NCBI GenBank assembly: GCA_018333605.1
Contig: JAGXSV010000043.1
Location: 1 to 64,000 of the forward strand
Direction of reading: 5' to 3'
Source: Hydrogenophaga sp.
GTDB taxonomy: Bacteria; Pseudomonadota; Gammaproteobacteria; Burkholderiales; Burkholderiaceae_C
DNA length: 64,000 nucleotides
Shown here piece by piece: positions 12,141-44,957 of this stretch. Made by a program: the position numbers and the translations under genes. Position 1 is the stretch's first letter, and the number at the start of each line of letters is the position of its first letter. The notes beneath the pieces were generated by a model. That model did not search any database. It was not told where the DNA came from and was given only the letters and a program-made list of their open reading frames with translations.

Positions 12141-12336
12141 GGTGGCTGCATTCTGCCGCTGTTGAGTGCTAATATCCGGTCCGGCGTGCGTCCATGCACA
12201 CCGCATGCACAGGGCAGCGCCATGCCACCGTGCTAGGATGCATTACAGCATTTTCATGCGCCTTTTCACCGCCTTGCTCTGGCTTCACAAACCAGCGCCC
12301 CTGATGCACGGATCGACCGATCCCGAGGGAAGATGC

Positions 12337-13264: not shown

Positions 13265-13635
13265 CCGGCATCCCCTGGCGCGAAGGGCTGTCGCTGGTGC
13301 TGATTGGTGTTGGCGTGCTGTTCTTCCTGGCCGGCAGCGTCGGCGTGTTGCGGCTGCCCGACCTGCTGTCGCGGCTGCACGCCTTGACCAAGGCCGACAA
13401 CCTCGGCCTGGGTCTGGTGGTGGCCGGTCTGATGCTGCAGGCTGCCAACGTGCAGGAGGTGCTCAAGCTGCTGCTGGTCTGGCTGCTGGTGTTGTTCGCC
13501 AGCTCGGTGGCCTGCTACCTGGTCGCGCGCTCGGCCACGGCCGCGGTGGTGCGGGCGGACGACGGCGCGCCAATACAGCCGACACAGCCGCCGCCCCCAG
13601 GCGAGCTGGCCGCCGGAGGCGCCAATGACCGCTGA
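13261..13635 (+). CDS. mrpG: Mrp-type antiporter subunit G (MnhG/PhaG family)
   Basis: A 124-residue inner-membrane protein with three hydrophobic spans and the MnhG signature GVLRLPDLLSRLHALTKADNLGLG. It starts in an ATGA overlap with mrpF and runs 11 bp into the next gene, so E-F-G-B are tightly coupled. The C-terminal about 30 residues (PTQPPPPGELAAGGAN) are disordered, like the tail of the upstream subunit. The ORF-track start at 12928 is upstream shadow. Confidence 0.85.
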   Translation: MTGIPWREGLSLVLIGVGVLFFLAGSVGVLRLPDLLSRLHALTKADNLGLGLVVAGLMLQAANVQEVLKLLLVWLLVLFASSVACYLVARSATAAVVRADDGAPIQPTQPPPPGELAAGGANDR

Positions 13636-14596: not shown

Positions 14597-14928
14597 GCCT
14601 GGCGCTGCTGTACGGTCTGGCCGGCATCGCGCTGGTGGCCATGGGGCTGTATGCGGCGCTGGCGGCGCGCCATGTGCTGCGCCGCCTGCTCGGCCTGAAC
14701 GTGCTGGGCTCGGGCGTATTCATGATGCTGGTCGCCCTGGCCTCGCGCGCCAGCGACAGCGCGGGACGCCCCGACCCGGTGCCGCACGCCATGGTGCTCA
14801 CCGGCATCGTCGTCGCCGTCAGCGCCACCGCGCTGGCGCTGGCGCTGCTGCGCCGCATGCATGCGCACGACGGCAGCCCGCGCCTGCCCGAAGACCGCGA
14901 CGACGCTTCGGACGGCCCTTCCCCATGA
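14593..14928 (+). CDS. mrpC: Mrp-type antiporter subunit C (MnhC/NuoK-like)
   Basis: A 111-residue NuoK-like protein with three membrane spans: LLYGLAGIALVAMGLYAAL, RRLLGLNVLGSGVFMMLVAL and HAMVLTGIVVAVSATALALAL. The DPVPHAMVLTGIVV stretch is typical of MrpC. Translation begins at GTG inside the stop of the preceding gene and ends in an ATGA overlap with the next one. Confidence 0.88.
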   Translation: MSLALLYGLAGIALVAMGLYAALAARHVLRRLLGLNVLGSGVFMMLVALASRASDSAGRPDPVPHAMVLTGIVVAVSATALALALLRRMHAHDGSPRLPEDRDDASDGPSP

Positions 14929-17902: not shown

Positions 17903-19619
17903 AGCGAGCGGCGCCCTGACCTGGCTGGCCCCGGCGCTCGTGCCGCTGGTCGCCATGCTGCTCCTGCTGCCAGGGCTGCGCCGGCTGCACCGCCTGCGCC
18001 TGCTGCTGCCGCTGGCGGCGCTGCCCGCCCTGGGCGTGGCGCTGTTCGCGCCGCCGGGCAGCGTCGACCTGCCGTGGCTGTTCCTCGGTGCGCGCTTCGG
18101 GCTGGACGACACCGGGCGCGTCTTCCTGCTCTTCACCGCGGCGCTGTGGCTGGCCGGCGGTGTGCATGCGCTGGGCTATCTGCACGACGACCCGCGAAGC
18201 AACAGCTTCTGGCTGTTCTGGTGTGCGGCGATGGCGGGCAATCTCGGCCTGGTGCTGGCGCAGGACGCGGCGAGCTTCTACGTCTTCTTCGCCCTCATGA
18301 GCTTCGCCGCCTACGGGCTGGTGGTGCACTCGCGCACACCCGAGGCGCTGCACGCGGGCCGCATCTACCTGGCGCTGGTGGTGCTGGGCGAGCTGGCGCT
18401 GTTCGCCGCCATCGCGCTGGCCTGGCAGGCCGCGGGCAGCCTGAACTTCGCCGACATCGGACCGGCGCTCGCCGCGTCGCCCTGGCGCGATGCGGTGATC
18501 GCGCTCACGCTGCTGGGCTTCGGCATCAAGGTCGGCGCGCTGCCGCTGCACGTGTGGCTGCCGCTGGCGCACCCGGTGGCGCCAACGCCGGCCAGCGCCG
18601 TGCTGTCGGGCGCGATGATCAAGGCCGGCCTGCTGGGCTGGCTGCGGTTGCTGCCGCTGGGGGCCGCTGGCGCGCCGGCCTGGGGCGAGGCGCTGGTGGT
18701 GCTGGGCCTCGTGGCGGCGTTTGCCGCCGCGCTGGTCGGCGCCACACAGCGCCAGGCCAAAGCGGCGCTGGCCTATTCGAGCATCAGCCAGATGGGCTTG
18801 GTCACCGTAGCCGTGGGCATCGCGCTGGCCGCGCCCGCCGCCGCCCCGGCGGCGGTGGCCGCGGCCACCCTCTACGCCTTCCATCACGCCTTTGCCAAGG
18901 CGGCGCTGTTCCTGGGCGTGAGCCTGGGGGGCGCGGCAACGCCCGGCCCCCGGGCACTGTGGCTACTGGGTCTGGCGCTGCCGGCCCTGGCCCTGGTCGG
19001 CGCGCCGCTGACCAGCGGCTTTGCCGCCAAGGCGGCGCTCAAGGCCGCGCTGCCCGAGACCTGGGCCTGGCTCGGCATGGCATTGAGCCTGGCCGCTGCC
19101 GGCACCACGCTGGTGCTGCTGCGCACGCTCTGGCTGCTGAAGCGCGACGCCGGAAGCCACGCCGCGCACCCGCCGAACCCCGCCATGTGGGCCGGCTGGG
19201 CGCTGCTGGTGGCCGCCAGCGCGGCCGGCTGGTTCATGATCGGAGATGCGCGCGACCTGCTGCCCGCCACGACCAGCGACTGGGCGGCCGCGATCTGGCC
19301 GATCGTGCTGGGCGCGATCCTGGCGCTGCTGGTCTGGGCGTGGCGCCGCAGGCGTGTGGGCGCCGATGGGTTCACGGTGCCGCCGGGGGACCTTCTGGTG
19401 CCGCTGCTGGCGCTGGCCAGAGCCGTCGCCGGGTCGAAGCGGCACCAGCAGGTGCCGACGGCAGGGCACGCCGAGCACGGCACAGAGGAGGTGGCGCAAT
19501 CCACCGTGCCGTCATGGCCCGGGCTGGCCCGCGCCGAATCGGCGCTGGCCGGGGGCGCCGGCCTCGCGCTGGCCCTTCTCGGCGCGGCCATGGTCGCGCT
19601 GTTGATCGTGTCGGCGTAG
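17889..19619 (+). CDS. Third proton-conducting subunit (HyfB/NuoM-like)
   Basis: A 576-residue polytopic membrane protein, the last gene of the Mrp-like operon. Its channel segment, IKVGALPLHVWLPLAHPVA followed by TPASAVLSGAMIKAGLLGWL, is closest to HyfB/HycC-type subunits, where the AHP-APxxxSA-MSGxMIK pattern is typical. KAALAYSSISQMG is also conserved. The region after about residue 470 is a variable loop (VAGSKRHQQVPTAGHAEHG) followed by one more TM helix. AAGGAG precedes the ATG at 17889. Having three channel-type subunits implies a larger membrane arm than the two of classical Mrp. Confidence 0.83.
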   Translation: MWVAEASGALTWLAPALVPLVAMLLLLPGLRRLHRLRLLLPLAALPALGVALFAPPGSVDLPWLFLGARFGLDDTGRVFLLFTAALWLAGGVHALGYLHDDPRSNSFWLFWCAAMAGNLGLVLAQDAASFYVFFALMSFAAYGLVVHSRTPEALHAGRIYLALVVLGELALFAAIALAWQAAGSLNFADIGPALAASPWRDAVIALTLLGFGIKVGALPLHVWLPLAHPVAPTPASAVLSGAMIKAGLLGWLRLLPLGAAGAPAWGEALVVLGLVAAFAAALVGATQRQAKAALAYSSISQMGLVTVAVGIALAAPAAAPAAVAAATLYAFHHAFAKAALFLGVSLGGAATPGPRALWLLGLALPALALVGAPLTSGFAAKAALKAALPETWAWLGMALSLAAAGTTLVLLRTLWLLKRDAGSHAAHPPNPAMWAGWALLVAASAAGWFMIGDARDLLPATTSDWAAAIWPIVLGAILALLVWAWRRRRVGADGFTVPPGDLLVPLLALARAVAGSKRHQQVPTAGHAEHGTEEVAQSTVPSWPGLARAESALAGGAGLALALLGAAMVALLIVSA

Positions 19620-21525: not shown

Positions 21526-23286
21526 TCAGGCGGGCTTGCCCTGCGTCTGGGTCTGGGTCTGCCGCTGGTAGTCGGCTTTCAGATCCTTGCGCAGGATCTT
21601 GCCCACCGGTGTCTTGGGCAGCTCCTTGCGGAACTCGATGCTCTTGGGCCGCTTGTAGTCGGTGAGCAGCGTCTTGCAGTGGGCGCGCACCCGCTCCTCG
21701 GTGAGGCCGTCCTGCTGCGCCACGATGTAGGCGCGCACCGCTTCGCCGCTGTGGCTGTCGGGCACGCCGATCACGCCGACTTCCAGCACCTCGTCCATCA
21801 GCGCGATGGCGTCCTCGACCTCGTTCGGATAGACGTTGAAACCCGACACCAGAATCATGTCCTTCTTCCGGTCGACAATGCGGAAGTAGCCGTCCTTGTC
21901 CATCACCGCCACGTCGCCGGTGTACAGCCAGCCGTCGCGTATCGCCTTGGCCGTCTCGTCCGGCCGCTGCCAGTAGCCGGCCATCACCTGCGGGCCGCGC
22001 ACGATCAGTTCGCCCGGCTCGCCCAGCGCCACCGGCACACCCTGGTCGTCCACCAGGCGCACCTCGGTGCCGGGCGCTGGAATGCCGATCGAGTCGGGTT
22101 TGCGCGTGCCGCCGATGGGGTTGAAGCTCACCACCGGCGAGGTCTCGGTCAGGCCGTAGCCTTCGGCGATGGGCGTGCCGGTGATCTGCTGCCAGCGATC
22201 CGCCACCGCGTGCTGCAGCGAGGTGCCGCCGGCCACCGCCGCCTTCAGGTGCTCGGGCGGGAAGGCGGTGAACCACTCCTCGTTCAGCAGCGCGTTGAAC
22301 AGCGTGTTGACACCGCTGACCCAGGTGACGGGATAGTTGTCGAAGGCGCGCTGCAGGTTCTGGATCGGGCGCGGGTTGGGTACCAGCACGTTGTGCGCGC
22401 CCACCGCGTAGAAGCACAGCAGGTTGAAGGTGAAGGCGAAGATGTGGTAAAGCGGCAGCGCGGTCAGCACCACCTCTTTGCCCTCATCGACGTGGCTGCG
22501 CCCCATCGCCAGCGCCTGCTCGATGTTGTGCAGCAGGTTGCCGTGGGTGAGCATCGCCCCCTTGCCCACACCGGTGGTGCCGCCGGTGTACTGCAGCACG
22601 GCCAGCGCGGCGTGATTCACCGCTTGCAAGTAGGCGGCGACATCGACCCGCTCGCGCTGCCGGGCCGCCGCGCCTTCGGCCAGCGCCGCAGCCAGCCGCA
22701 CATGCCCGACCGTGATCTTCGGCAGCACCTGGTTCCACATCTTCATCACACCGCGGATCACCGCGCGCGGCACCGGCGAGAAAAACTGCGACACCTCGGC
22801 GACGATCACCCGCCTGATGGCCGTGCGCTTCAGAATGCCTTCGAGCTTGTTGGCGAACATGTCCACGATCACCAGCGCCTCGGCGCCGCTGTCCGCGAAC
22901 TGGTGCTCCATTTCCGCTGGTGTGTACAGCGGGTTGATGTTCACCAGCACGCAGTCGGCCTTCAGGATGCCGAAGGCCACCACCGGATAGGCCAGGCAGT
23001 TGGGCGTCTGGATCGCGACCCGGGCGCCCGGCGCCAGACCGAGCACCTGGCGCAGGTAGACCGCGAAGTCGTCGGACAGGGCGTCGACCTGCCCAAACGT
23101 GAGCGAGCCGTGCATGCCGTTGGGCATGCAGGTGGTGAACGCGACCTGTGCCGCGTAGCGCTCGGCCGTTGCGCGCAGCAAGGCGGGCAGGTGGGCGTGC
23201 CGCAGCGGGCCCAGCTCGCGCGGGATGTTCGTGCCGTAGTGTTCGAGCCAGGGCTTCAGGTCGTAGATGGCGGCGGCGGAGTTCAG
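21526..23286 (-). CDS. Long-chain fatty acid-CoA ligase (FadD-like)
   Basis: An ANL-superfamily enzyme that activates a carboxylic acid to its CoA ester at the membrane. Motifs are complete: P-loop-like YTGGTTGVGKGAMLTHGN, YGLTETSP, GWLYTGDVAV, DRKKDMILVSGFNVYPNEVE and the C-terminal Lys in PKTPVGKILRKDL. The best start seems to be a CTG (23286-23284): AGGAG lies six bases upstream and the protein then begins MNSAAAIYDLKPWLEHYG, typical of FadD. The upstream ATG (23376) would add 30 residues unlike the family. It is divergent from the DUF2459 gene. Chain-length specificity is unknown. Confidence 0.88.
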   Translation of the reverse strand: MNSAAAIYDLKPWLEHYGTNIPRELGPLRHAHLPALLRATAERYAAQVAFTTCMPNGMHGSLTFGQVDALSDDFAVYLRQVLGLAPGARVAIQTPNCLAYPVVAFGILKADCVLVNINPLYTPAEMEHQFADSGAEALVIVDMFANKLEGILKRTAIRRVIVAEVSQFFSPVPRAVIRGVMKMWNQVLPKITVGHVRLAAALAEGAAARQRERVDVAAYLQAVNHAALAVLQYTGGTTGVGKGAMLTHGNLLHNIEQALAMGRSHVDEGKEVVLTALPLYHIFAFTFNLLCFYAVGAHNVLVPNPRPIQNLQRAFDNYPVTWVSGVNTLFNALLNEEWFTAFPPEHLKAAVAGGTSLQHAVADRWQQITGTPIAEGYGLTETSPVVSFNPIGGTRKPDSIGIPAPGTEVRLVDDQGVPVALGEPGELIVRGPQVMAGYWQRPDETAKAIRDGWLYTGDVAVMDKDGYFRIVDRKKDMILVSGFNVYPNEVEDAIALMDEVLEVGVIGVPDSHSGEAVRAYIVAQQDGLTEERVRAHCKTLLTDYKRPKSIEFRKELPKTPVGKILRKDLKADYQRQTQTQTQGKPA

Positions 23287-23456
23287 GGCGGTCTCCTGGT
23301 GTCTGGGTGTGAGAGCGACAAACTGCTGTGGTGCGAGGGTCTGGGCGGATGGGCGTTCCCGTGCACGAAGACCCATCGGGTCGCCGCTTGACCTGCGTCA
23401 CCCGGCGTGCGAATCGTAGCCCAGCTGACACGTTGGCGGTTCAGAATCGCGCTGTG

Positions 23457-24233
23457 ATGTCCACCGCTGCGTCTCCCTCCACCGTCCGGCCCCGAGCCCC
23501 TCCCACGTCCCGCTCCCCGAAGTGGGGCCGCTGGGTGCTGCCCGCGCTGGCGCTGGTCGGCCTGGCGGTGTTCACGCCTGCGGTCAGGGCCGCCGAAACC
23601 GCGCCCGATACCGTCACGGTTCACGTGGTCGCCCATGGCTGGCACAGCGGCCTGGTGATTCCGGCGGCCGTGATCGACGCCGACGCCTGGCCTGCCCGGC
23701 GAGCGTTTCCCGATGCGGATTATTTCGAAGTCGGCTGGGGCGACCGGGCCTACTACCAGGCGAGCGATCCGGGTCTGTGGCTCGGTCTGCGTGCGCTGTT
23801 GTGGCCCAGCCCCGGCGTGCTGCACATCGTTGCCCTGCGGGGTGCACCGGCGCAGCACGTCGCGGGCGCGCCCATCGCCACCCTTGAGATTTCGCGCGAG
23901 GGTGCGCGGCGCCTGGTGGCCGCGATCAGCGGGAGCCACGAACGCGACGCGCAGGGGCAGCCGATCGCCTTCGGACCGTCCCTGTACGGCCAGGGGCGTT
24001 TCTACGCCTCGGTCGAGCGCTTCCACCTCTTCGCGACCTGCAATGTCTGGGTCGCAAGACGGTTGCGCGATGCCGGTGTCGCGGTGCGTCCCGCGCTGGC
24101 GATCACCACCGGCATGCTGTTCGCGCAACTGGCGCAGGGCGCCCAACACCGCTCCGTACCTTGGGCCCCAGGGCCCCACCCGCTGCAGGCGCCCAGGCCG
24201 ACCGATTTCCAACCATCTGCGGCGCCAAATTGA
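23457..24233 (+). CDS. DUF2459 family exported protein
   Basis: A 258-residue protein with a signal peptide or anchor ([20 protein letters not shown]) and the DUF2459 hallmark VVAHGWHSGLVIPA near the mature start, followed by YFEVGWGDRAYYQ and a conserved CNVWVARRL segment. The His, Cys and aspartates in these motifs recall papain-like/NlpC-type folds, but no activity has been established to my knowledge. The ATG at 23457 is chosen because the track start (23328) would precede the signal peptide by 43 residues. It is followed by the ACP-FAAL-PlsC gene on the same strand. Confidence 0.8.
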   Translation: MSTAASPSTVRPRAPPTSRSPKWGRWVLPALALVGLAVFTPAVRAAETAPDTVTVHVVAHGWHSGLVIPAAVIDADAWPARRAFPDADYFEVGWGDRAYYQASDPGLWLGLRALLWPSPGVLHIVALRGAPAQHVAGAPIATLEISREGARRLVAAISGSHERDAQGQPIAFGPSLYGQGRFYASVERFHLFATCNVWVARRLRDAGVAVRPALAITTGMLFAQLAQGAQHRSVPWAPGPHPLQAPRPTDFQPSAAPN

Positions 24234-24277
24234 CGCCGGGTCACGGCGGTGCGGCCGATCTGTGCTGCAATGTGCCC

Positions 24278-27163
24278 ATGGTCACCGAATCCACATCCCC
24301 CGCACACCCGACGCAAGCCCCTGGAGAGGGCGCACCCGCCACGCAGGACGACACGGCGCAGCGCCTGCTGAGCGCCGTGGCCGCCGTCGCTGCCGAGCTG
24401 CGGCAGGCGCCGCCGCGCACGCCCGCTCTGGGCCTGGACGACTCGCTCGAGCGCGACTGGGGGCTGGACAGCCTGGCGCGCGTGGAGCTCATCACCCGCG
24501 TTGGTCAGGTGTTTGGCGTGCAGCTGGACGAAAACGCCCTCACCCTCGCCGAGACGCCGCGCGACCTGCTGCGGCTGGTGCATCAGGCGCCACCCGCGGC
24601 GATGACGGACCGCGTCGCGTCGGCGCCGCGCAGCGCCGCCCCGGCAACGGCGGCCACGCTGCCTGAGGAAGCCCCCGCCGCCACCCCCGACACCGCCACG
24701 ACCTTGCTGGAGGTGTTCGACTGGCACCTGCAACAGCATCCCGACCAGGTGCTGATCACCCTGTACGAATCTGGCGACCACAGCGCCGAGCTCAGTTACG
24801 CGGCACTGCACGCCGACGCCCAGGCCGTCGCGGCGGGCCTGCAGGCGCGCGGGCTGGCGCGCGGCGAGGCGGTGGCCATCATGCTGCCCACCGGCCGCGA
24901 GTTTTTCGCCGCCTTCTTCGGCATTCTTCGTGCCGGCGGTGTGCCGGTGCCGGTGTACCCGCCGGCGCGGCCCTCGCAGCTCGAGGACCACCTGCGCCGC
25001 ATCGCCGGCATCCTGCGCAACTCCAAGGCGCGCGAGCTGCTCACCGTCGAGCGCGCCAAGCCGCTGGCGCACCTGCTGCGCGCCGAGGTGCCGTCGCTGC
25101 AGGCCGTGGCCACCGTGGCGGACGTCGCCCTGCCCGGCAGCGTGCCCACCACGCACCACATCAGCGCCAGCGACGTCGCCTTCCTGCAATACACCTCGGG
25201 CAGCACCGGCGAGCCCAAGGGCGTGGTGCTGACGCACGCCAACCTGCTGGCCAACCTGCGTGCGATGTGGCACGCCTCGGGCACGAACGGGCGCGACACC
25301 TTCGTCTCGTGGCTGCCGCTGTACCACGACATGGGCCTGATCGGCGCCTGCCTGGGCGCCCTGGTGGTCGGCTTTCACCTGGTGCTGATGTCGCCGCTGG
25401 CCTTTCTGGCACGGCCGCTGCGCTGGCTGGAGATGATCGAGCGCCACCGCGGCACGCTGTCGGCGGCGCCCAACTTCGCCTACGAGCTGTGCCTGGCCAA
25501 GGTCAGCGACGCCGAGATCGAACGGCTGGACCTGTCGAGCTGGCGGCTGGCGTTCAACGGCGCCGAGCCGGTGAACCCCGAGACGCTGGAGCGGTTTGCC
25601 GAGCGCTTTGCGCGCTGCGGCTTCAAGAGCGCGGCCCTCACGCCGGTCTATGGCCTGGCCGAGAGCTCGGTCGGGCTGGCCTTCCCGCCGCTGGGGCGCG
25701 GGCCATGGATCGAACCCGTGGACCGCAGCGCGCTGGCGCACGAGGGCGTGGCCCGACCGGCGCGCGACGGCGACACGGCGGCGCTGCGCATCGTGTCCTG
25801 CGGCCTGCCGCTGCCGGGACACGAGATCCGCGTCGTCGATGCCTCCGGGCGCGAGCTGCCCGAGCGCCAGCAGGGCCGGGTGCAGTTCCGAGGCCCCTCA
25901 AGCACCCAGGGCTACCTGGCCAACCCGCAGGCCAACGCGCGCCTGTTCGACGGTGACTGGCTGAACACCGGCGACCTCGGCTTTGCGCTGCGCGGCGAGC
26001 TGTTTCTCACCGGTCGCGAGAAAGACATCGTCATCCGCGGCGGCTTCAACATCCACCCGCACGAACTGGAGTCGGCGGTGGCGGCGCTGCCCGGCATCCG
26101 CAAGGGCGGTGTGGCGGTGTTCCCGGCCAGCGACCCGCGCCACGCCACCGAGCGGCTGGTGGTGCTGGCCGAAACGCGCACCACCGACGCCGCGCGGCGC
26201 GCGCAACTGGTGCGCGAGATCATGGCGCTGTCTGCCACGCTGCTGGGCGCGCCGGCCGACGACGTGGTGCTGGCGCCGCCGCACTCGGTGCTCAAGACCT
26301 CCAGCGGCAAGATCCGCCGCGCCGCCTGCCGCGAACTGTACGAACAGGGGCGGCTGGGCACGACGCAGCGCGCGCCGTGGCGGCAGTGGCTGTCGCTGGC
26401 CGCCTCGGCGGCGCTGTCTCGCGCGCGCTTCGCCTGGCAGACGCTGGCCCGCCGCGCCTGGGGCCTGTGGGCCTGGGCCGTGCTGCTGGCGCTGGGCAGC
26501 GTGGCCTGGTGCCTGATCATGCTCGGCCCGCAGCTCGAGCAGCGCCGCAGCACCGCGCGCGCCTTCTCGCGCGCGGTGCTGCGGCTGATCGGGCTGCCGG
26601 TGCAGGTGCAGGGCCTGACGCAGCTGCCGGCCCACGGGCCCTGTATCGTCGTCGCCAACCACGCCAGCTACCTCGATTCCTTGCTGCTGGGTGCGCTGCT
26701 GCCGCCGCGCTTCGCCTTCGTGGCCAAGCGCGAACTCGAAACCGCGCCTTTCATCGGCGCGGCGCTGCGGCGGCTGGGCGTCGCCTTCGTCGAGCGCTTC
26801 GACGCCGCGCGCGGTGTCGAAGACGCGCAGTCGATGCTGGCGCGGGTGCGCGCCGGCGAGTCCTTCGTCGTCTTTCCCGAGGGCACCTTCCGCCGCGCCA
26901 CGGGGCTGCTGCCGTTCAAGCTGGGAGCCTTTGTCACTGCCGCCGAAGCGGGCGTGCCGCTGGTGCCGGCGGCTTTGCAGGGCACGCGCTCGCTGCTGCG
27001 CGCGGGTGCCTGGCTGCCCGAGCGCGGCCCGGTCGGTTTGCGCTTGCTCGCGCCGGTGCGCCCGTCGGGCACGGGCTGGGACGCCGCGCTCGCCGCACGC
27101 GACGAGGTGCGCGCGGCGCTGGCGGCCGAGCTGCGCGAGCCGGTGCTTGACCACCCGCAGTGA
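24278..27163 (+). CDS. Three-domain lipid enzyme: acyl carrier domain + fatty acyl-AMP ligase + PlsC-type acyltransferase
   Basis: A 961-residue fusion protein. Residues about 35-110 form an acyl-carrier domain with the phosphopantetheine site WGLDSLARVEL. Residues about 130-690 are an ANL ligase of the FAAL type (YTSGSTGEPKGVVLTHANL, YGLAESSVGL, INTGDLGF-like NTGDLGF, GREKDIVIRGG, KTSSGKIRR). After one or two membrane helices (about 725-745), residues about 770-955 are an LPLAT/PlsC domain (NHASYLD about 794, FPEGTFRR). The simplest reading is that a fatty acid is adenylated, loaded on the in-cis carrier and transferred to a lyso-lipid or other acceptor. The start MVTESTSPAH (24278) is preferred over 24161, which overlaps DUF2459. 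Confidence 0.88.
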   Translation: MVTESTSPAHPTQAPGEGAPATQDDTAQRLLSAVAAVAAELRQAPPRTPALGLDDSLERDWGLDSLARVELITRVGQVFGVQLDENALTLAETPRDLLRLVHQAPPAAMTDRVASAPRSAAPATAATLPEEAPAATPDTATTLLEVFDWHLQQHPDQVLITLYESGDHSAELSYAALHADAQAVAAGLQARGLARGEAVAIMLPTGREFFAAFFGILRAGGVPVPVYPPARPSQLEDHLRRIAGILRNSKARELLTVERAKPLAHLLRAEVPSLQAVATVADVALPGSVPTTHHISASDVAFLQYTSGSTGEPKGVVLTHANLLANLRAMWHASGTNGRDTFVSWLPLYHDMGLIGACLGALVVGFHLVLMSPLAFLARPLRWLEMIERHRGTLSAAPNFAYELCLAKVSDAEIERLDLSSWRLAFNGAEPVNPETLERFAERFARCGFKSAALTPVYGLAESSVGLAFPPLGRGPWIEPVDRSALAHEGVARPARDGDTAALRIVSCGLPLPGHEIRVVDASGRELPERQQGRVQFRGPSSTQGYLANPQANARLFDGDWLNTGDLGFALRGELFLTGREKDIVIRGGFNIHPHELESAVAALPGIRKGGVAVFPASDPRHATERLVVLAETRTTDAARRAQLVREIMALSATLLGAPADDVVLAPPHSVLKTSSGKIRRAACRELYEQGRLGTTQRAPWRQWLSLAASAALSRARFAWQTLARRAWGLWAWAVLLALGSVAWCLIMLGPQLEQRRSTARAFSRAVLRLIGLPVQVQGLTQLPAHGPCIVVANHASYLDSLLLGALLPPRFAFVAKRELETAPFIGAALRRLGVAFVERFDAARGVEDAQSMLARVRAGESFVVFPEGTFRRATGLLPFKLGAFVTAAEAGVPLVPAALQGTRSLLRAGAWLPERGPVGLRLLAPVRPSGTGWDAALAARDEVRAALAAELREPVLDHPQ

Positions 27164-31443: not shown

Positions 31444-32094
31444 TCAGCGTCGGCGCAACAGGCGCCGACCGATGACGGCGGCCACGGCGAGCCCCGCCAG
31501 CAGCACGGCCACGAAAGCCGCGAAGCGGTTTTCGATCAGCGCCGCACTCAGGTACACCGCCCACAGCGCAAACGGCAATTCGGAGGCCAGCAGCACCGGC
31601 CAGAACTTCGTCAGCGGGTAGCGCATGATGCCCAACGCGAAACTCGGCATCTCCGACGGCAGGGCCAGTTTCAGCAGCGCGACCTCGGCCACGCTCATGC
31701 GCACCGACAGCAGTTCGGCGTAGTGGTCCAGCGTCTCTGCGGGGACGAAGAACAGGGTGGCGCGGCGACCGAAAAGATGGCCAATCAGGTAGGCCAGGTT
31801 GGCACCCAAGAACCAGCCGCCCGTGAGCAGCAGCAGCGTCTCGCCCTGGCCCCAGGCGTACACCGCCACCGGCACCACCGCGATGCTGGAGAACAGCACC
31901 AGCATCGCCGAGAGCGCCGCCAGCACAACAAAAGCCAGTCGGCTGACCAGCGGCTGGCTCTCGACGTAGTCCTTGCTGAACTGCAGCGCGTCGATGAAGG
32001 TCGCATGCAGCGACGCCGAAGCCCACAGCAAGGCCGCCAGTGCAATGATGACCGCGGCCAGCAGGACCTGACGGCGCACAGGATTTTGAATCAT
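31444..32094 (-). CDS. VTT-domain (TVP38/DedA-like) membrane protein, copy 1
   Basis: A 216-residue inner-membrane protein with the VTT-domain fold: two re-entrant loops and several spans. AFVVLAALSAMLVLFSSIAVVPVAVYAW and GGWFLGANLAYLIGHLFGR are the conserved parts, followed by LPSEMPSFALGIMRYP. Proteins of this superfamily are linked to lipid flipping and envelope maintenance; a scramblase role for this one is inference only. It is convergent with the AI-2E gene. A second, quite different VTT protein lies at 37579-38235. Confidence 0.8.
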   Translation of the reverse strand: MIQNPVRRQVLLAAVIIALAALLWASASLHATFIDALQFSKDYVESQPLVSRLAFVVLAALSAMLVLFSSIAVVPVAVYAWGQGETLLLLTGGWFLGANLAYLIGHLFGRRATLFFVPAETLDHYAELLSVRMSVAEVALLKLALPSEMPSFALGIMRYPLTKFWPVLLASELPFALWAVYLSAALIENRFAAFVAVLLAGLAVAAVIGRRLLRRR

Positions 32095-32367: not shown

Positions 32368-33606
32368 TCATGGCGGCTCGATCAGCGGACACGCGCTCGG
32401 GTTCACGGCGAGTTTCTTCGCGATGATGTCCGGGGCCCGCGTGCCCAGGTAGTGCGCAATCGTCTCGACGCGTATCTTCACCGAGCCGGCTGGCTTGGTC
32501 GCATCCAGGTCCTGAAACGAGAAGAACAGCGTGCCCGAGCGCTCGACGATGGCCTGCACCGGCGAGTAGGTCGGCTGGTCCATGCCGCATTCGTAGCTCG
32601 CCAGCCGCACCACGCAGGCGATCCACGGCATGCGCGCCGCGAACTTTGCGCCCCACAGGATCTCGTTGGTGTTGGCGCTGTACGAGGACGGCCAGACGTC
32701 GTGGATGTCCAGCGGCGAGCGGATGTGGCCCGCAGCGATGTCGGCGTCGAACATCCAGTGCAGCAGATCGTCGTCGGTGGGCAGGTGCTGCGCCCACAGC
32801 ACCGGGTAACCGCGGGCCTGCAGATCGGTCTCGATCTCGTGGCCGATGCCCGGGTCCATGTGGTAGGGCCGCGCCAGCACCAGGATGCAGGGGCGCTGCG
32901 CGCGCGCGCACTGCTCGAGGAGCTCGCGGGATCGGGCGCGCAGGCGCCGGTCCCAGGCCTCGAGCGCGCGAAAGCCGGCGTCCACCGCGCGCCGGGTTTC
33001 CTCCAGCGTCAGCCCGGGCATCGCGTCCTTGAAGCCGGCGTGCAGCTGCTTGGGCAGCACCGGCGGGTCGGCCAGCGAGACGAAGGGCGCGACGTAGCGC
33101 ACGCCGGCCTCGGCGAAGGCGTCGCGCTCCTTGAGGAAGCCGGCCTTGATGTTCTCCGGCCCCGCCATCACGCGCGGGCACGAAAGCGAGGCGGTGACGT
33201 GAGTGCCCAGGAAGGACGGCAGCGTGTAGATCATGGGCACGAACAGGATGTCGATCTTGCGCTTGCTGCGCGCCAGCAGCTCGCCGTAATGCCCGGACAT
33301 GCACTTGACCGGGTAGCAGCAGTCCACCGTGCCGCGCCCCATGGCGTGGCTGCGCCCCTGCTCCTCCGAGGTGTCGGACGAGAACTCGATGCGCCGCGGA
33401 TCGATGCCCAGAGCGCTCAGAAAGCCGATCCAGAACTGGTGCGTCGACCACATGTTGAGCACGCGCGGAATGCCCACGCGCAGCAGCCCGCGGTCCTTGG
33501 GCGCCGCCGCGGCAGGCGCAGGCTTCTCAGTCAGCGCTGTGGAGCTCGACGCGGGTGGGCTTGAAGGCGGCGTCTCGAACCAGTTCAGCAATGTTCGGGT
33601 GGGCAC
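32368..33606 (-). CDS. 2-hydroxyacyl-CoA dehydratase-activase related protein (DUF2229/HgdB-like)
   Basis: A 412-residue soluble protein, last of a three-gene reverse-strand unit. It matches the DUF2229/HgdB-like part of the large multidomain 'CoA activase' proteins of anaerobes: LLRVGIPRVLNMWSTHQFWI, GTVDCCYPVKCMSGHYGELL, FVPMIYTLPSFLGT, CILVLARPYHMDPGIGHEIE and LASYECGMDQPTYSP. The conserved cysteines (DCCYPVKC, YECG) could hold an iron-sulfur cluster. The gene overlaps the activase by 80 bp, suggesting descent from one longer reading frame or strong translational coupling. Substrate unknown. Confidence 0.82.
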   Translation of the reverse strand: MPTRTLLNWFETPPSSPPASSSTALTEKPAPAAAAPKDRGLLRVGIPRVLNMWSTHQFWIGFLSALGIDPRRIEFSSDTSEEQGRSHAMGRGTVDCCYPVKCMSGHYGELLARSKRKIDILFVPMIYTLPSFLGTHVTASLSCPRVMAGPENIKAGFLKERDAFAEAGVRYVAPFVSLADPPVLPKQLHAGFKDAMPGLTLEETRRAVDAGFRALEAWDRRLRARSRELLEQCARAQRPCILVLARPYHMDPGIGHEIETDLQARGYPVLWAQHLPTDDDLLHWMFDADIAAGHIRSPLDIHDVWPSSYSANTNEILWGAKFAARMPWIACVVRLASYECGMDQPTYSPVQAIVERSGTLFFSFQDLDATKPAGSVKIRVETIAHYLGTRAPDIIAKKLAVNPSACPLIEPP

Positions 33607-35710
33607 GGCGGGCTTCCTCCAATTGGGCTTTCGCCACTTTCATCTCGTTTAGGTCCTCGAGCAGGCCCTTGGGGCAGGTGTGGCCACTGATGACACGCTC
33701 CCACCCCGCATCGAGCGGCACCAGGCTCCAGGGGCGCCCGGCGGCGCCGGGGATGCGCACGTCGATGAAGGTGCGCCGACAGTTGACGGTGCACCAGTGG
33801 CAGGTGGTGTGCTCGTTGGTGGTGGCGGTGTACTCGAGCGACTCGATCAGCGCGTAGCCGCGAAAGCGCGTCGGCGCGCCGGACTTCGCCCAGTCGATCG
33901 CGCACAGCGCGGCGCCGATCGCGCCGGCCTCGCCCGCGTGGGGGTGCACGACGACCTCGGCGTCCGGCACCTTGCTGCGGATGAAGTCGATCTGCGCCTT
34001 GACCACCGCCAGGTTGCGGTGGGTGCCGCCCTGCAGCACGAACTTGCGCCCGGCGGCGGCCAGGTTCTGGATCTGCCCCGCGTAGACCCAGACGTTGAGC
34101 GGCAGCACCGCAGCCAGCCCGGCCATGATCTCCTCGCGCGACCAGCCTTTGCGCTGCTGGTTGACGATGTCGGACTGCAGGAACACGCCGCAGCCCATGG
34201 CCAGTGCCGGCACCGAGCGCGCCTCGAAGGCGCGCTCGGCGTACTCGTCGAGCGGCACCCGGTAGCGCTCGGCCACGCCCTGCAGGAAGGCGCCGTTGCC
34301 CGACGAGCACTGCGAGTTCAGCCGGAAGTCGGCCACCGTGCCCTGGCGCAGCAGCATGATCTTCACGTCGCAGCCGCCGACGTCGCAGATCACGTCGGCA
34401 TCGGGGAAGCAGCGCAGCGCCGAGGTCGCGTGCGCCACCGTCTCGACCACCGCGACGTCGGCGCCGACGATGTCCTTCAGCAGGTCCTTGCCGTAGCCGG
34501 TGACGCCGAGCGCGGCGATACGCTCGAAGCCGGCGCCGCGCACCTCGCGCATGAGCGCCTTGGCGTCCTCAATCGGGTTGCCGTGTGAGGGTGCGTAGCA
34601 ACTCGCCAGCAAGTCACCGGCGAGCGACAGCACCACCGCCTTGGCCGTTGTGCTGCCGAAGTCGCAACCGACCGCCACCGGTGCGCCGAGCTGCGTCGGC
34701 GCGACAGCGGGCAGGCTGGCCCGCGGCGTGCCGTAGCTGTGCATGAAGCTGGCGAGTTCTTGTGCGTCGGCGACCAGCCCCTTGGCGCCCTCGCGCGCCT
34801 TGTGCTCGTGCTGCCCCTCTTCGATCCACCAGCGCAGCCGCTCGGTGCCGGTATAGACACCCACCTGCGGCGCCTCGCCGTGGCCGATCTCGACGCAGCC
34901 GATGCAGGCGTAGTACAGCGCGTCGCCGGGCACCACGATCAGCGACTCGGGGCTCGCCCCTGCGGGCAGTTCGACATGGCGCTCGCGCCACAGCCGCGCG
35001 AGGTGGTGCCGCCACGCCTGCTGCAAGCCCTTGAAGAACAGGTTCGGCCCGCCCAGCAGCAGCACCTGCGGCATCGGCGTGTTGCCCTTGGTCAGCGTGG
35101 CCAGGTTCTGGTAGACCACGGCCTCGAACAGGCTGGCGATGATCTCTTCGACCGGCACGCCGCTCTTGACCAGCGTGTTCGCGTCGGCCTCGGCGAAGAT
35201 GCCGCACTTGGAACTGATCTTGTGCAGCGTGCGGCCGCTGTAGTCCATCGCCGCCAGCCGCTCGGGCGCGATCTGCAGCTTGCGCGCCGTTTTTTCGATG
35301 AAGGTGCCGGTGCCGCCGCTGCACGCCGACTGCATGTAGACCTGCTTGGACTTGCCGTCGCCGCCGGACGTGAAGAACAGCGTCTTCATGTCCTCGCCGC
35401 CGATCTCGGAGACGAAGCCGACCTCGGGGTGCAGTTTTTCCACCGCCGCGGCCACCGCCACCACCTCCTGCACGAACCGGCCACCGACCAGCGGCGCGAT
35501 CAGCCCGCCGCCCGATCCGGTGATGAAGATGCGGTCGCGACCAGGTGTGAGGCCGCATTCGTCCTCCATGCGGCGCAGGAAGTCGAGCACCGTCTCGGCC
35601 TGCCGGGTGTCGTGGCGCCGGTAGTCGCGCCAGCGCACCACGCCGCCCTCGTCGGCAAGGGCCTTGACGGTGGTGGATCCGATGTCCAGACCGACGAATT
35701 TCATTGTCAT
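33527..35710 (-). CDS. Tandem BadF/BcrA-type ATPase: acyl-CoA dehydratase activase
   Basis: A 727-residue protein with two ASKHA-fold activase domains and a Cys-rich C-terminus. Domain 1 starts KFVGLDIGSTTVKALADE and has the cluster cysteines in CSGGTGTF and SSKCGIFAEAD. Domain 2 starts VAVGCDFGSTTAKAVVLS and has CSSGNGAF and GCGVFLQSD. Such ATPases inject an electron, at the cost of ATP, into a partner dehydratase. The tail carries TTCHWCTVNC and SGHTCPKG. The track lists 1,161 residues, but everything before MTMKFVGLD overlaps the HgdB-like gene in another frame and is low-complexity shadow. It starts in an ATGA overlap with the preceding gene. Confidence 0.88.
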   Translation of the reverse strand: MTMKFVGLDIGSTTVKALADEGGVVRWRDYRRHDTRQAETVLDFLRRMEDECGLTPGRDRIFITGSGGGLIAPLVGGRFVQEVVAVAAAVEKLHPEVGFVSEIGGEDMKTLFFTSGGDGKSKQVYMQSACSGGTGTFIEKTARKLQIAPERLAAMDYSGRTLHKISSKCGIFAEADANTLVKSGVPVEEIIASLFEAVVYQNLATLTKGNTPMPQVLLLGGPNLFFKGLQQAWRHHLARLWRERHVELPAGASPESLIVVPGDALYYACIGCVEIGHGEAPQVGVYTGTERLRWWIEEGQHEHKAREGAKGLVADAQELASFMHSYGTPRASLPAVAPTQLGAPVAVGCDFGSTTAKAVVLSLAGDLLASCYAPSHGNPIEDAKALMREVRGAGFERIAALGVTGYGKDLLKDIVGADVAVVETVAHATSALRCFPDADVICDVGGCDVKIMLLRQGTVADFRLNSQCSSGNGAFLQGVAERYRVPLDEYAERAFEARSVPALAMGCGVFLQSDIVNQQRKGWSREEIMAGLAAVLPLNVWVYAGQIQNLAAAGRKFVLQGGTHRNLAVVKAQIDFIRSKVPDAEVVVHPHAGEAGAIGAALCAIDWAKSGAPTRFRGYALIESLEYTATTNEHTTCHWCTVNCRRTFIDVRIPGAAGRPWSLVPLDAGWERVISGHTCPKGLLEDLNEMKVAKAQLEEARRAHPNIAELVRDAAFKPTRVELHSAD

Positions 35711-37350
35711 TGCCGCTCCTTCGCCACGTGCAGCGCCAGGTTGGCCGCGGTGCCGACGACGCCGTGGTGCGGCACGCGGTAGGTGGCGCGCGAGAGCTCG
35801 GGCCGGGCCGCGACGGCGGCGGCGACCTCGTCGTGCGTCATGCCGATGCGCTCCAGCACCGACGCGTACTCGTGCTGGGCGCGCTTCTTGGCTTCGGTCA
35901 GGATCATCTGGCAGCGCGACAGCGCATGCACCTCGGCGTCGCCCTTGATCTCGATCGGCGCGTACAGCAGATCGGGATGCTTGCCCAGCACCGCCGCCAT
36001 CGCGCCGATGCTCATCGTGTTGGGCATGCAGGCGTAGGGCGACAGCTCGCAGGTCATGTGCGCTTTCTTGCCCAGGTGCGCCCACAGCGCCTTGCCGATC
36101 AGCATGTCGCCTTCGCCGCCACTCATGCGGGCGTTGAAGTACGGCGCAGCGAGCCGACTCAGCTCGGCCTGCTCGGGCAGTTCGCGCGGCACGTCGGCCA
36201 GCGCGCGGCGCATGCGCCCGTAGGTCCAGCGCAGCAGCCCTTGGCCGACGCGGATGCCGGCGTACTTCAGGCGCGCACCGCGCTCGATGCCGATGCGTTC
36301 CTCGAACTCCTGCCCCGCGAAGCGCAGCAGGTAGTCCAGCCACACCGCTACCGCGGCCGGGTAGACCTCGGCGCCCTCGGCCTCGAGCCAGCGGTGGATG
36401 TTGTAGTTCGGGTCCCCCTCCACGGTCTGCAGGTAGAACTCGCCGGTGAGCTTCACCACCGGCTTGACGCGCAGGCGGTCGAGTTCGATGGTGTCGTAGC
36501 GGCGGCGCACCTCGCGCAGCGCGCGCACGAAGTAGCCGGTCGACAGGTGCCAGGCGGCGGCGCCCCACTGCGCGCCCCAACGCGCGCCGCGCCCGGGCCG
36601 CGCGCGCAAGACCTCGCACAGATAGGCCACCGCCTCCTGCGTCACGAGCTCGGTCTGGCCGGGAATTTTTTCGTAGGGTCGGCTCTGGTACTCCAGGTCC
36701 TGTATCACGTCGGCGAGCAGCACCGCCCACACCGCGCCCAGCGTGAAGGGCAGGTTCAGCTCCAGGCCACCTCCCTGGGCCGCGCCCTGATCGAGTTCGT
36801 TCTGCGCCAGCAGGAACATGCGCAGCGAATCGAGTCCGACATTGCGCAGCGCCAGTTCGTAGCTCTGGTGGTACTGCCCGAAGCGGCAGGCCCCGCAGGC
36901 GCCGGCGGTGACGTAGATGTACTCCTGCGCCACGCGCTGCGCGCCGATGCGCGCGGTCTGCTCGCGCAGGAAGTTGGCCAGGTTGCCGGTGGTGAAGCTG
37001 GTCGGGCAGCACTGGCCGATGTCGGCGACTTCGCGACCGGTAAGCAGGTCGGCACGCGTGGCCGTTGGCAGCACCTGGACGCGGTAGCCCAGATTTTCCA
37101 TGGCGGCCTGCATCAGGTGCTCGGCGCGCCAGTGCAGACCGCCGAAGAGCAGGGTGACGCTGTCGCGTTCCTCGCGCGGGAAGGGCCGCGGCTTGTAGGC
37201 CCGGTAGTGACCGCTCTGGCCCTGCGCAGGCGGCGCCGTGCGGGCGGGCAGCGCGACCGCGCCGCGCAGGGCACCCACGGTCGCGGCCTGCGTGACCACC
37301 CGAATCTTGCGCAAGGCGGCATGGCCGTCGCAGTCGTCACCGATCTTCAT
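35707..37350 (-). CDS. 2-hydroxyacyl-CoA dehydratase (HgdB/D-component-like) protein
   Basis: First gene of the three-gene unit; 547 residues. The start MKIGDDCDGHA (37350) follows AGGAG; the track's longer form is rejected. Cys-rich signatures include GQCCPTSFTTGNLANFL, GACGACRFGQYHQSYELAL and CELSPYACMPNTMSIGA, the same patterns seen in the HgdB-like domain of giant CoA-activase proteins. These cysteines likely bind [4Fe-4S]. With the tandem activase it may form an ATP-driven reductive dehydratase or reductase, but which thioester, if any, is used is unknown. Such systems are typical of anaerobes, so low-oxygen use is plausible here. Confidence 0.83.
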   Translation of the reverse strand: MKIGDDCDGHAALRKIRVVTQAATVGALRGAVALPARTAPPAQGQSGHYRAYKPRPFPREERDSVTLLFGGLHWRAEHLMQAAMENLGYRVQVLPTATRADLLTGREVADIGQCCPTSFTTGNLANFLREQTARIGAQRVAQEYIYVTAGACGACRFGQYHQSYELALRNVGLDSLRMFLLAQNELDQGAAQGGGLELNLPFTLGAVWAVLLADVIQDLEYQSRPYEKIPGQTELVTQEAVAYLCEVLRARPGRGARWGAQWGAAAWHLSTGYFVRALREVRRRYDTIELDRLRVKPVVKLTGEFYLQTVEGDPNYNIHRWLEAEGAEVYPAAVAVWLDYLLRFAGQEFEERIGIERGARLKYAGIRVGQGLLRWTYGRMRRALADVPRELPEQAELSRLAAPYFNARMSGGEGDMLIGKALWAHLGKKAHMTCELSPYACMPNTMSIGAMAAVLGKHPDLLYAPIEIKGDAEVHALSRCQMILTEAKKRAQHEYASVLERIGMTHDEVAAAVAARPELSRATYRVPHHGVVGTAANLALHVAKERQ

Positions 37351-37578: not shown

Positions 37579-38235
37579 TCAGCGCCGCCGCCGCCCGGCC
37601 CAGGCGCGAGCGGCCAGCACGACGGTAACGGCGGCGAGCAGCGGCCACAGGGTCTGCAGGTTCAGCAGATCGGCCGGTTTGTCGGCGGCCAGGGCGGCGT
37701 GGATGGTCTGGCTGTACAGCCCGGACTTGAGGGCAAAGCCGATCACCGCCGAGGCCAGGAAGGGCGCCAACGGCAGCCGCAGCGTGCCAGCGGTGTAGTT
37801 GATCACCGAGTGCGGGAATCCGGGCGCCAGACGGAGTGCGCATTGCAGCAGGAAGCCGCCTTCGCGCTGCATCAGGTGAAACCCACGGCTGCCCTGGATT
37901 TGCGCCAGCGCCGCGCCGGTGAGCTGGCGCGCGAACCCGTACGCACCCAGCGCGCCGACGCAGCCTCCCACGGTCAGGATCACCGTCGCCGGGCCCGGTG
38001 CGTAGAGCGGGGCGACCAGCCAGAGCAGAGCCGAGCCGGGCAGCGCGAAGGTGAAGAAAAGCACCTGCAGCAGCAGCAGCACGGCGACGAACCACCAGTG
38101 AACCGTCAGGCTGCGCGCCCATTCGAGCCACACACGGAGATCCACGACATCGAACGCCTGGGCGGCCAGGCCTGTCACGGCCAAAACGCCCAACACGAGC
38201 ATCGGCCACCAAGGGGAGAAGCGGTGGCTCGGCAT
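37579..38235 (-). CDS. VTT-domain (TVP38/TMEM64-like) membrane protein, copy 2
   Basis: A 218-residue inner-membrane protein with the VTT-domain core: FFTFALPGSALLWLVAPLYA, GGCVGALGAYGFARQL and the conserved RLAPGFPHSVINYTAGTLRLPL, which is the hallmark of TVP38/TMEM64 proteins. It lies upstream of the HgdB-like gene on the same strand after a 228-bp gap. The other VTT gene sits on the far side of the dehydratase trio, so two related membrane proteins bracket it. Lipid transport or scrambling is inferred from the superfamily only. Confidence 0.8.
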   Translation of the reverse strand: MPSHRFSPWWPMLVLGVLAVTGLAAQAFDVVDLRVWLEWARSLTVHWWFVAVLLLLQVLFFTFALPGSALLWLVAPLYAPGPATVILTVGGCVGALGAYGFARQLTGAALAQIQGSRGFHLMQREGGFLLQCALRLAPGFPHSVINYTAGTLRLPLAPFLASAVIGFALKSGLYSQTIHAALAADKPADLLNLQTLWPLLAAVTVVLAARAWAGRRRR

Positions 38236-38409: not shown

Positions 38410-39045
38410 TCAAGCAGCGGGCTTGACCCAGCGGAAGACGCGCATCGGCGGCAGGTTGCGCCACTCCCAGTCGACCTGGGGCACACCCAGGTGCGGCTCG
38501 GTATAGTCGGCCACGTGGGCGCGTAACTGGTAGGCGACGAAGCGGCCTTCCGGTGCCAGGCAGTCCTTGATGGACGCAACGACAGCTTGCACGGCGTCGA
38601 CCGGCAGTGTCGAGAACGGGATGCCCGAGACGACCACATCCGGCGCCGACAGCTGCCAGTGTTTGAGGTGCAGCGCCAGATCCACAGCACTGCCCTCCTG
38701 CACGACGAGTCGCGGGTCAGCGATGCGCTGCCGCAGCCGTTCGCAAAAGCGTGGATTCAAGTCGATCGCCAGCAGCCGCGCCTGTGGCGCCATGGCCCGC
38801 AGCAAGGCGCGCGTCGTACCACCGGTGCCGGGACCGAGTTCGACCACCACGCGCGCATCGCTCAGAGCGGCCGCCTGCACCACGCGCTGCTCGAGGAAGA
38901 CGGAACTCGGCGCGACGGAGGCGACAGCCAGCGGGCGCGACAAGAATTCACGCAGGAACGCCATGCCGTCGGCGAGGCGTGAGCTGCCAGGGGCAACGAT
39001 CCGGTCGCCGCCGCGAGGCGTGGCAGCGGTGGTGGTGCGCGACAT
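38410..39045 (-). CDS. Class I SAM-dependent methyltransferase, PmtA-like
   Basis: A soluble or membrane-associated protein of about 211 residues with the SAM-binding motif VVVELGPGTGGTTRALL, followed by LLAIDLNPRFCERLRQR and VVSGIPFSTLP. This set is close to the Rhodobacter/Sinorhizobium-type phospholipid N-methyltransferases that turn phosphatidylethanolamine into phosphatidylcholine; rRNA adenine methyltransferase-like relatives cannot be excluded. The N-terminal ADGMAFLREFLSRPLAVASVAPSS is typical of the PmtA group. The start MSRTTTAATP (39045) is favoured over 39096, neither with a strong RBS. It acts on a product made through pssA, if PmtA activity is right. Confidence 0.78.
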   Translation of the reverse strand: MSRTTTAATPRGGDRIVAPGSSRLADGMAFLREFLSRPLAVASVAPSSVFLEQRVVQAAALSDARVVVELGPGTGGTTRALLRAMAPQARLLAIDLNPRFCERLRQRIADPRLVVQEGSAVDLALHLKHWQLSAPDVVVSGIPFSTLPVDAVQAVVASIKDCLAPEGRFVAYQLRAHVADYTEPHLGVPQVDWEWRNLPPMRVFRWVKPAA

Positions 39046-39222
39046 GGCGATGACCTGTTTTTTCTGTTCGGTTGGCACGTGGACTCCAGGTGGCATGCGG
39101 GTGTCAACCCCGCGAAGTCGATGGGAACGGGCAATAGCGGGGCCAGCGCATCAAAGACGTCATTCGGAGGCACTCCCGACGGGATCGTTCCCACGATCCC
39201 CGAATGATCGGCAACCCACCGC

Positions 39223-39236
39223 TTGATTATCACCAA
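39223..39236. promoter_or_regulatory. Possible FNR/ANR-like box
   Basis: TTGATTATCACCAA matches the TTGAT-N4-ATCAA consensus with one mismatch in the second half. It lies about 180 bp upstream of the methyltransferase start and upstream of no other intact gene. The stress-protein and FtsH/KefB wrecks next to it suggest a formerly oxygen-controlled region. A chance match is quite possible. Confidence 0.3.
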
Positions 39237-39332
39237 CGCTCCAGCCTCGCGCGGGTGCCGACCGTATTGCGCCGGCTCGCACCAGCAGGCCCGGCGCGCA
39301 AGGTGTGCATGCTACCGGACCGGACACAACCG

Positions 39333-39640
39333 TCATGCCGCGCGCGCGGTGGACACCAGCACGTCGCCAACCGACTCGGCGAGCACACGTGTGGTCACAC
39401 TGCCGGGCAGGCAGTCCTCGACGACGCTCTGACCGTGCTTGCCGATGACGATCAGGTCGCCGTCGGACTCCTGCTCCTGCTCGATGATCGCCAGCACCAG
39501 TGCCTGCGCCGACGATGGGGAAAAGTCCACCGGAACGAGCACGCAGGTACAGGGCTCGCGCGCCTCTTGCTTGACGACGAGCAGCGGTCGGCGCGTCGTG
39601 CGCAGCAGCCGCCGGAGGTCGTTCCCAGAGCGAGGCGGCG
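39333..39640 (-). pseudogene. Universal stress protein (UspA family), internally deleted
   Basis: The reverse strand reads RRLLRTTRRPLLVVKQEA, then CVLVPVDFSPSSAQALVL and, with the middle missing, DGDLIVIGKHGQSVVEDCL and RVLAESVGDVLVST. These are the N-terminal strand and the ATP-binding C-terminal end of a Usp domain. Roughly 60 residues between them are absent and no proper start remains. It is adjacent to the KefB wreck and partly fused to it in the ORF track (39160-39807). Confidence 0.7.
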
Positions 39641-40067
39641 CACGAAACCCGCGCCGCGCACTCGACGTGGATCGCCGCCAGCAGCGCCGGGGCGGCGATC
39701 TCGCCATAGACCACCGTGTACCCGTCGGCTCGACCCTGCACGACCCACTTGGGGTCGGTGTCGAAAGCGATGAAGGGCACGCCGCTGGCCTGCAGCAGCA
39801 CCGCCACCGTGTGCCCGACGCGGCCTTAGCCGCCGATCACGACCGGTGCCGTCACGTCGGCAACCCCCGGCAACGGCAGTTCGGGGTGCGGCACGCCGAA
39901 CCCGGCCAGCGCCTCGAACGCCGGCACAGGAATGGGCGGACCCACGGTGTACGGCCCAAGGATGACGCCCACCAGCAGGTAGCCCAGGCTGGGGGGACCT
40001 GCAGGCGCTGGCAGGCCAGCACGACCGCCACCGCCAGGAACAGCAAGATCTGCGTCAGGTGCGCCAT
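39641..40067 (-). pseudogene. KefB-type K+/H+ antiporter (CPA2), internally deleted and interrupted
   Basis: The N-terminus MAHLTQILLFLAVAVVLACQ and, one frame over, LGYLLVGVILGPYTVGPPI are the first helices of a CPA2 antiporter. The sequence then jumps straight to the RCK/TrkA-N domain: PVVIGG, a stop codon in place of a residue, GRVGHTVAVLLQASGVPFIAFDTDP and GRADGYTVVYGEIAAPALLAAI. Most membrane helices are gone. Frameshift, stop and deletion together rule out function. KefB-like genes are common passengers of stress-tolerance islands. Confidence 0.75.
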
Positions 40068-43776: not shown

Positions 43777-43796
43777 TGCGTGGACCGCCGAAGCGA

Positions 43797-44957
<1,161 letters not shown>

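Follow-up and report, generated by a model that had tools for sequence, protein, structure and literature searches.

The window (the whole stretch of 64,000 nucleotides of Hydrogenophaga sp. DNA analysed here) encodes on its minus strand, between positions 37350 and 32368, three intact genes that all overlap and are read in the order C, B, A. Gene C (minus strand, 35707-37350, 547 aa) starts with an ATG at 37350 behind a ribosome-binding site, AGGAG, on the same strand at 37362-37358. It gave no match to Pfam, and on the basis of its open reading frame, this ribosome-binding site and an alignment of 55 homologues it is predicted to encode an HgdB-like reductase subunit (the counterpart of Red2 of PlsA; PlsR-like). 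Its stop codon overlaps the ATG of gene B (minus strand, 33527-35710, 727 aa) in the sequence ATGA (35707-35710, minus strand), which makes translational coupling of the two genes likely. Gene B contains two stretches matching PF01869 (BcrAD_BadFG, 221.5 bits) and would be a tandem activase (Act1-Act2), while gene A (minus strand, 32368-33606, 412 aa) matches PF09989 (DUF2229, 145.9 bits) and would encode the DUF2229 reductase subunit (Red1 of PlsA). The 3' end of gene B and the 5' end of gene A overlap by 80 nt (33527-33606, minus strand), and both this overlap and the GTG start of gene A are kept in the nearest relatives.

Profiles of B, A and C matched successive parts of a 1484-aa protein from Listeria in collinear order (residues 8-663, E 4.8e-83; residues 677-988, E 1.4e-29; and residues 1002-1411, E 3.1e-24, respectively), at an identity of just 24-33%. 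PlsA is laid out as Act1-Act2-Red1-Red2 (PMC12838417) and Listeria is listed among the bacteria with pls orthologues (PMC9702350); from this literature and from its architecture, the Listeria protein appears to be of the PlsA/Ger type. The set of modules that characterizes this type (two BadF-type activase domains, DUF2229 and an HgdB-like domain) is complete in the trio, spread over three proteins, and every module carries Fe-S cysteines conserved in 54-55 homologues. We propose that the trio is probably a bacterial ester-to-ether lipid reductase (PlsA/PlsR, Ger superfamily) split into three subunits, and that it would most likely use ATP to reduce the acyl esters of phospholipids to vinyl or alkyl ethers, not carry out CoA-substrate chemistry. 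We hold this functional assignment with good but not full confidence, because the identity to the Listeria protein is low, validated Ger and C. perfringens PlsA fell outside the comparison, and the homologous loci share no pathway neighbors.

The two known forms of the giant enzyme differ from the trio in several respects. PlsA/PlsR (CPE1194/1195 in C. perfringens, a single-gene pls in Enterococcus, Lactococcus and Listeria) has the same four modules and cluster cysteines, as judged on the Listeria protein, whereas the trio consists of three genes in the order C-B-A instead of B-A-C, forms a distinct clade in respiring bacteria, and has an extra invariant cysteine in C as well as further clade-specific cysteines. 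Ger (Thermotoga maritima, Desulfatibacillum alkenivorans), compared by its description, likewise has two activation domains (PMC13274423) and a DUF2229-type architecture, but it is a single chain (of 159 kDa in D. alkenivorans) and comes from anaerobes. In E. coli grown anaerobically, Ger yields monoethers and diethers (PMC11150832), and its carriers contain alkyl ethers, not plasmalogens (PMC8788747, PMC11150832, PMC13274423); Ger and PlsA are reported to be not yet distinguishable on sequence alone (PMC13274423). Splitting of the giant architecture has a precedent, since the Fusobacterium form has B and A fused and keeps a C-like gene apart. We found no description of a split form in aerobes in the literature surveyed, a survey that left out the 2022 Science Advances paper on Ger, which may mention split forms. 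The split trio may be new as a variant of the giant PlsA/Ger type, itself already known, and a prior description of the split form is possible.

Conservation of the cluster cysteines extends to all three proteins. Across 54-55 homologues, the invariant cysteines are 130, 169, 468, 507, 637, 640, 644 and 679 in B (with Cys130 present in 53 of the 53 alignment rows having a residue there) and 97, 143 and 340 in A; in the alignment of 55 homologues of C they are 120, 158, 161 and 447, in a numbering that starts 18 nt before the ATG at 37350, so that 6 is to be subtracted for ATG-based numbers. When the second activase domain of B was aligned with the structure of HgdC (1hux, E 7.8e-25), Cys468 and Cys507 were placed opposite the HgdC cluster cysteines. 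Cysteines 637, 640, 644 and 679 of B form a CX2CX3C...C motif, which the Listeria giant has too. All cluster cysteines of B and A, and three of the four in C, are in register with that protein; the remaining one, Cys158 of C, is invariant among the aligned homologues and absent from the Listeria protein. Five additional cysteines (B 272 and 349, A 233, C 440 and 486) are found only in the split clade and are missing in the fused clade. The initial annotation had described this locus as a giant protein split into three overlapping genes with apparently conserved cluster cysteines, and had proposed an alignment to HgdC; the coordinates, intact frames, ATGA and 80-nt overlaps agree with that description, all the cysteines expected are present and invariant, and the alignment gave the anticipated match.

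By analogy with HgdC, B would be a pseudo-dimeric ATPase in which each activase domain gives two cysteines (130/169 and 468/507), probably to one shared bridging [4Fe-4S] cluster, and its four-cysteine motif (637/640/644/679) is a plausible second cluster site. Hydrolysis of ATP would drive the transfer of low-potential electrons from B to a heterodimer of A and C, both of which (HgdB/DUF2229 type) are expected to carry Fe-S clusters, and the heterodimer would in turn reduce the carbonyl of an acyl ester in a membrane phospholipid. Protonation and elimination of water would then yield a vinyl ether, and further reduction an alkyl ether; we favor the alkyl ether as the product of the trio, since B has two activation domains and the ethers of Hydrogenobacter discussed below are saturated. 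The cluster types, substrate, reaction, product and function at low or normal oxygen are predictions from sequence, and the substrate could have changed, given the identity of 24-33% to the Listeria giant and the long branches between clades.

Searches with plain sequence profiles of A and of C gave no relative among solved structures, with no match to dehydratase or BCR subunits, and we therefore used fold prediction for these two proteins. The AlphaFold model of A (pLDDT 86.5) has a fold like that of the 2-hydroxyisocaproyl-CoA dehydratase beta chain (3o3m_B), at a modest TM-score, and the model of C (pLDDT 82.8) has its nearest fold in DCCP (7yyl/6eno, E 4.1e-06), at low TM-scores (0.35-0.47) and an identity of 11-12%; the activase 7yyl_E matches B. 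The models suggest that A and C belong to the HgdB superfamily. Since the activase and the reductase subunits share their folds with HgdC, HadI, BCR and DCCP, and since AMP-binding genes of the acyl-CoA ligase type lie some kb off in several loci (21526-23376 in the window), the trio could be read, as its database names have it, as acting on CoA thioesters, either as a 2-hydroxyacyl-CoA dehydratase or as an aryl-CoA reductase, together with its activase. We consider this unlikely, as the combination of tandem activase, DUF2229 and HgdB-like protein is the PlsA/Ger architecture, no CoA-transferase or ring-cleavage pathway recurs beside the trio, and the profiles of A and C match no solved dehydratase or BCR subunit.

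Individual known systems were also considered. HgdC with HgdAB and HadI with HadBC have the same activase fold, with two cluster cysteines per activase domain, and the likeness of A to 3o3m_B belongs here; they differ in having a single-domain homodimeric activase, no DUF2229 and a CoA substrate. A CoA-transferase is found among the neighbors of these systems. We rejected an HgdABC-type dehydratase, because B is a tandem activase whereas that of HgdABC is a single-domain homodimer, and because CoA-transferase and amino-acid fermentation genes are absent from the island of the window and do not recur in the homologous loci. Class I benzoyl-CoA reductase (BcrABCD, Bzd, Mbd) was rejected because all scores are below the curated cut-offs (TIGR02259, 99.4 against 578 bits; TIGR02261, 96.8 against 312.85; TIGR03192, 76.9 against 380.2). 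YjiL/YjiM of E. coli, whose role is unknown, is likewise a pair of an activase and an HgdB-like protein; it was rejected as the nearest kin, as it has a single activase domain that is ~27% identical to B in two pieces, with neither a tandem nor a DUF2229 unit.

The nearest fold of C also raises the possibility of a DCCP-like small-molecule reductase, or of an ATP-driven activator or maturase of another metalloenzyme, comparable to the activation of methyl-coenzyme M reductase. Activases of this family serve several settings, a match to TIGR03286 (methanogenesis marker 15) was obtained, and a trio without pathway neighbors would fit a stand-alone housekeeping role. Such a function nevertheless seems improbable, given the low TM-scores and identity of the match (0.35-0.47 and 11-12%), the single-domain reductase that partners DCCP without any DUF2229 protein, and the fact that no metalloenzyme gene recurs beside the trio. 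DCCP of Carboxydothermus, which C of the trio resembles in fold, is a double-cubane homodimer that works with a single-domain reductase (DCCP-R). The double-cubane [8Fe-9S] site of DCCP has six cysteine ligands, lies in one reductase chain and goes with a single-domain activase; DCCP:DCCP-R itself was rejected because just four cysteines of C and three of A are fully invariant and B is tandem.

In order to determine how widely the trio occurs we scanned genome contigs and obtained homologues from 80 loci (80 contigs), with a best-segment identity of 47-81% for B. The order C-B-A on one strand is found in 56 of the 57 loci in which all three genes were found and unfused, the sole exception (L028) having a broken C frame; B and A are fused in 5 loci. 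Unfused C-B-A loci are distributed over Proteobacteria, Rokubacteria, Acidobacteria, Aquificaceae and other phyla, and the trio is present in isolates of Falsiroseomonas and Caldovatus and also in MAGs of Hydrogenobacter and Thermocrinis. For each of the three genes, dN/dS relative to the nearest relative is ~0.2 (dN 0.13-0.16, dS 0.65-0.83), and comparison of the sequences thus indicates that purifying selection is acting on the trio. The homologues in 80 contigs, the same gene order and the low dN/dS together argue that the trio is not a chance pattern.

The phylogeny, which included neither validated Ger nor C. perfringens PlsA, recovered a split clade of 49 rows with support of 100/99, apart from the fused B-A clade and from the PlsA-type giants (the Listeria, Fusobacterium and Haliovirga forms), with long branches between clades. 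The split form is a well-supported clade of its own, in which the copy of the window groups with betaproteobacterial copies. Two labels in the dataset are doubtful: a MAG named Bordetella parapertussis (L029) has a copy grouping with those of uncultured Betaproteobacteria from the environment, and a Listeria 'plasmid' of 2.9 Mb (L094) is evidently a chromosome. In an Aquificota MAG (L057, 10157-13310), export-type genes (HlyD-like, ABC ATPase and FtsX-like by sequence) lie between B and A on the opposite strand, so that B and A need not be co-transcribed there; we rejected this set as a partner of the trio and read it as an insertion.

Among 59 other genomes of the same genus as the window, only one has a homologue, in fused form. 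In this locus (L013; G016:C19:38000-57900, 6347-11694) B and A form one frame of ~1213 aa with C downstream, and it belongs to a different clade from the trio of the window. A phylum-wide search at a strict E-value found no close copies in 398 other genomes, which indicates that the family is patchy. DUF2229 was detected in 15 of 399 genomes of the order, in frames of both split size (420-432 aa) and giant size (1434-1508 aa). Of 20 genomes bearing these loci, 17 gave just one DUF2229 match. Some genomes (those of L083, L090 and L049) contain more than one such system; one Bacteroidetes MAG, for instance, has both a split form and a 1477-aa giant.

The trio lies in a segment with a G+C content of 0.66-0.73, between ~8 and 42 kb of the window, compared with ~0.59-0.66 outside it. 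Because this GC-rich segment is flanked by genes native to the genus, its reading as an island is reasonable. In three relatives ilvC is closely followed by a CDP-alcohol phosphatidyltransferase gene, while in the window ilvC and the phosphatidyltransferase gene (5820-6782) face each other ~37 kb apart, and an inverted 62-nt copy (94%) of the 3' end of ilvC (5728-5789 and 43796-43857) precedes the transferase gene. This indicates that the segment was inserted or rearranged. The 62-nt copies mark the edges of the island-like segment, and no integrase was identified at these edges. The compositionally distinct segment, together with the single, fused homologue in the genus, is what would be expected if the trio were a silent or decaying remnant of horizontal acquisition without function in its host. 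We regard this as very unlikely, since the frames are open, the ribosome-binding site is intact, dN/dS is ~0.2 and the cluster cysteines are all kept.

The host genome has two haem-copper oxidase (COX1) genes, which supports a respiratory host. The initial annotation had likewise assumed a respiratory host and carriage on an island, had remarked that no CoA-transferase or substrate pathway lies beside the trio, and had proposed a search for the trio elsewhere in the order. The first two of these points agree with our results, as do the architecture and the cysteines; the third holds in the island of the window, and no such gene or pathway recurs in the homologous loci; and a DUF2229 search of the order gave the split-size and giant frames described above. 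Its interpretation as a cryptic anaerobic function on a CoA substrate was not supported. The missing CoA-transferase is expected if the trio, collinear with PlsA/Ger, acts as they do on a phospholipid ester instead of a CoA thioester. Purifying selection argues against an anaerobic leftover, as does the recurrence of the trio in lineages that are aerobic or microaerobic (isolates of Falsiroseomonas and Caldovatus, MAGs of Aquificaceae).

Several neighbors of the trio in the window may provide a lipid context, which is suggestive only. These are a methyltransferase (minus strand, 38410-39096) closest to OlsG (ornithine-lipid) and PmtA (phospholipid) N-methyltransferases, which we do not claim as a member of the system and whose NCBIfam scores are both below the curated cut-offs (NF041658, 101.9 bits against 350; NF045881, 61.5 against 250); two VTT-domain membrane proteins (DedA/TVP38 type, PF09335), one at 37579-38235 on the minus strand and the other at 31444-32094; and an AMP-binding/acyltransferase fusion (24161-27163). 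Elsewhere in the window, a Mrp/Mnh-type Na+/H+ antiporter cluster (12166-19619; MnhE, MnhG, MbhD/MnhB and three Proton_antipo_M proteins) adjoins a P-type cation ATPase (8412-11219), and two overlapping frames on the same strand (39160-39807 and 39333-39707) with partial TrkA_N and Usp matches are probably a single frameshifted or decayed gene. Across the 80 homologous loci, we found no shared pathway neighbor and no conserved lipid-gene neighbor, AMP-binding, MFS and weak fatty-acid-desaturase-like matches near the trio being lineage-local. Only a TetR-family regulator, forming one sequence cluster, recurs across phyla; it is encoded near the trio in 8 loci and directly upstream in 7. This recurrence favors the proposed lipid role, since in E. 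faecalis and further facultative anaerobes pls is reported to have a TetR gene upstream as well (PMC9702350).

We know of no ether lipid reported from the lineage of the window itself, and a paper on serpentinite lipids had no bearing on ethers in Burkholderiales. Support for the ether-lipid assignment comes from the Aquificaceae, thermophiles in which ether lipids are known. In five Aquificaceae genomes and one further Aquificota genome the sole DUF2229 gene is of split size, with no giant, and Hydrogenobacter thermophilus, an aerobe of the Aquificaceae, contains straight-chain saturated glycerol monoethers (PMC3111988); the trio genes are carried by a Hydrogenobacter MAG, whereas the ether-lipid record comes from H. 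thermophilus. L. cremoris PlsA made plasmalogen in aerobically grown E. coli (PMC12838417), so that aerobic function of the trio is possible. As a tentative extension, which we think may well prove wrong, the split trio could be an oxygen-adapted and widely transferred ester-to-ether reductase supplying alkyl ethers in bacteria that live aerobically or microaerobically (Aquificaceae, Acidobacteria, Rokubacteria and Proteobacteria), with the split and the clade-specific cysteines as part of the adaptation to oxygen, and could be the enzyme, so far missing, that forms ethers in Aquificales and in some producers of ether lipids in soil. Ether-lipid synthesis outside strict anaerobes is an open question that bears on geochemistry, through bacterial ether lipids and the use of brGDGTs as palaeothermometers, and on the 'lipid divide' that separates bacteria from archaea. 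Being compact and present in cultivated genera (Falsiroseomonas and Caldovatus) as well as in MAGs of Hydrogenobacter and Thermocrinis, the trio opens this question to experiment, and it poses the biochemical puzzle of an ATP-driven, very low-potential Fe-S system maintained in oxygen-respiring cells.

As controls, the DUF2229 search was positive for T. maritima, the source of a validated Ger (PMC11150832), and for Lactococcus lactis, which is close to the tested L. cremoris PlsA. Among the control genomes, those of Thermus composti and Deinobacterium chartae, which belong to aerobic groups, also gave a DUF2229 match.
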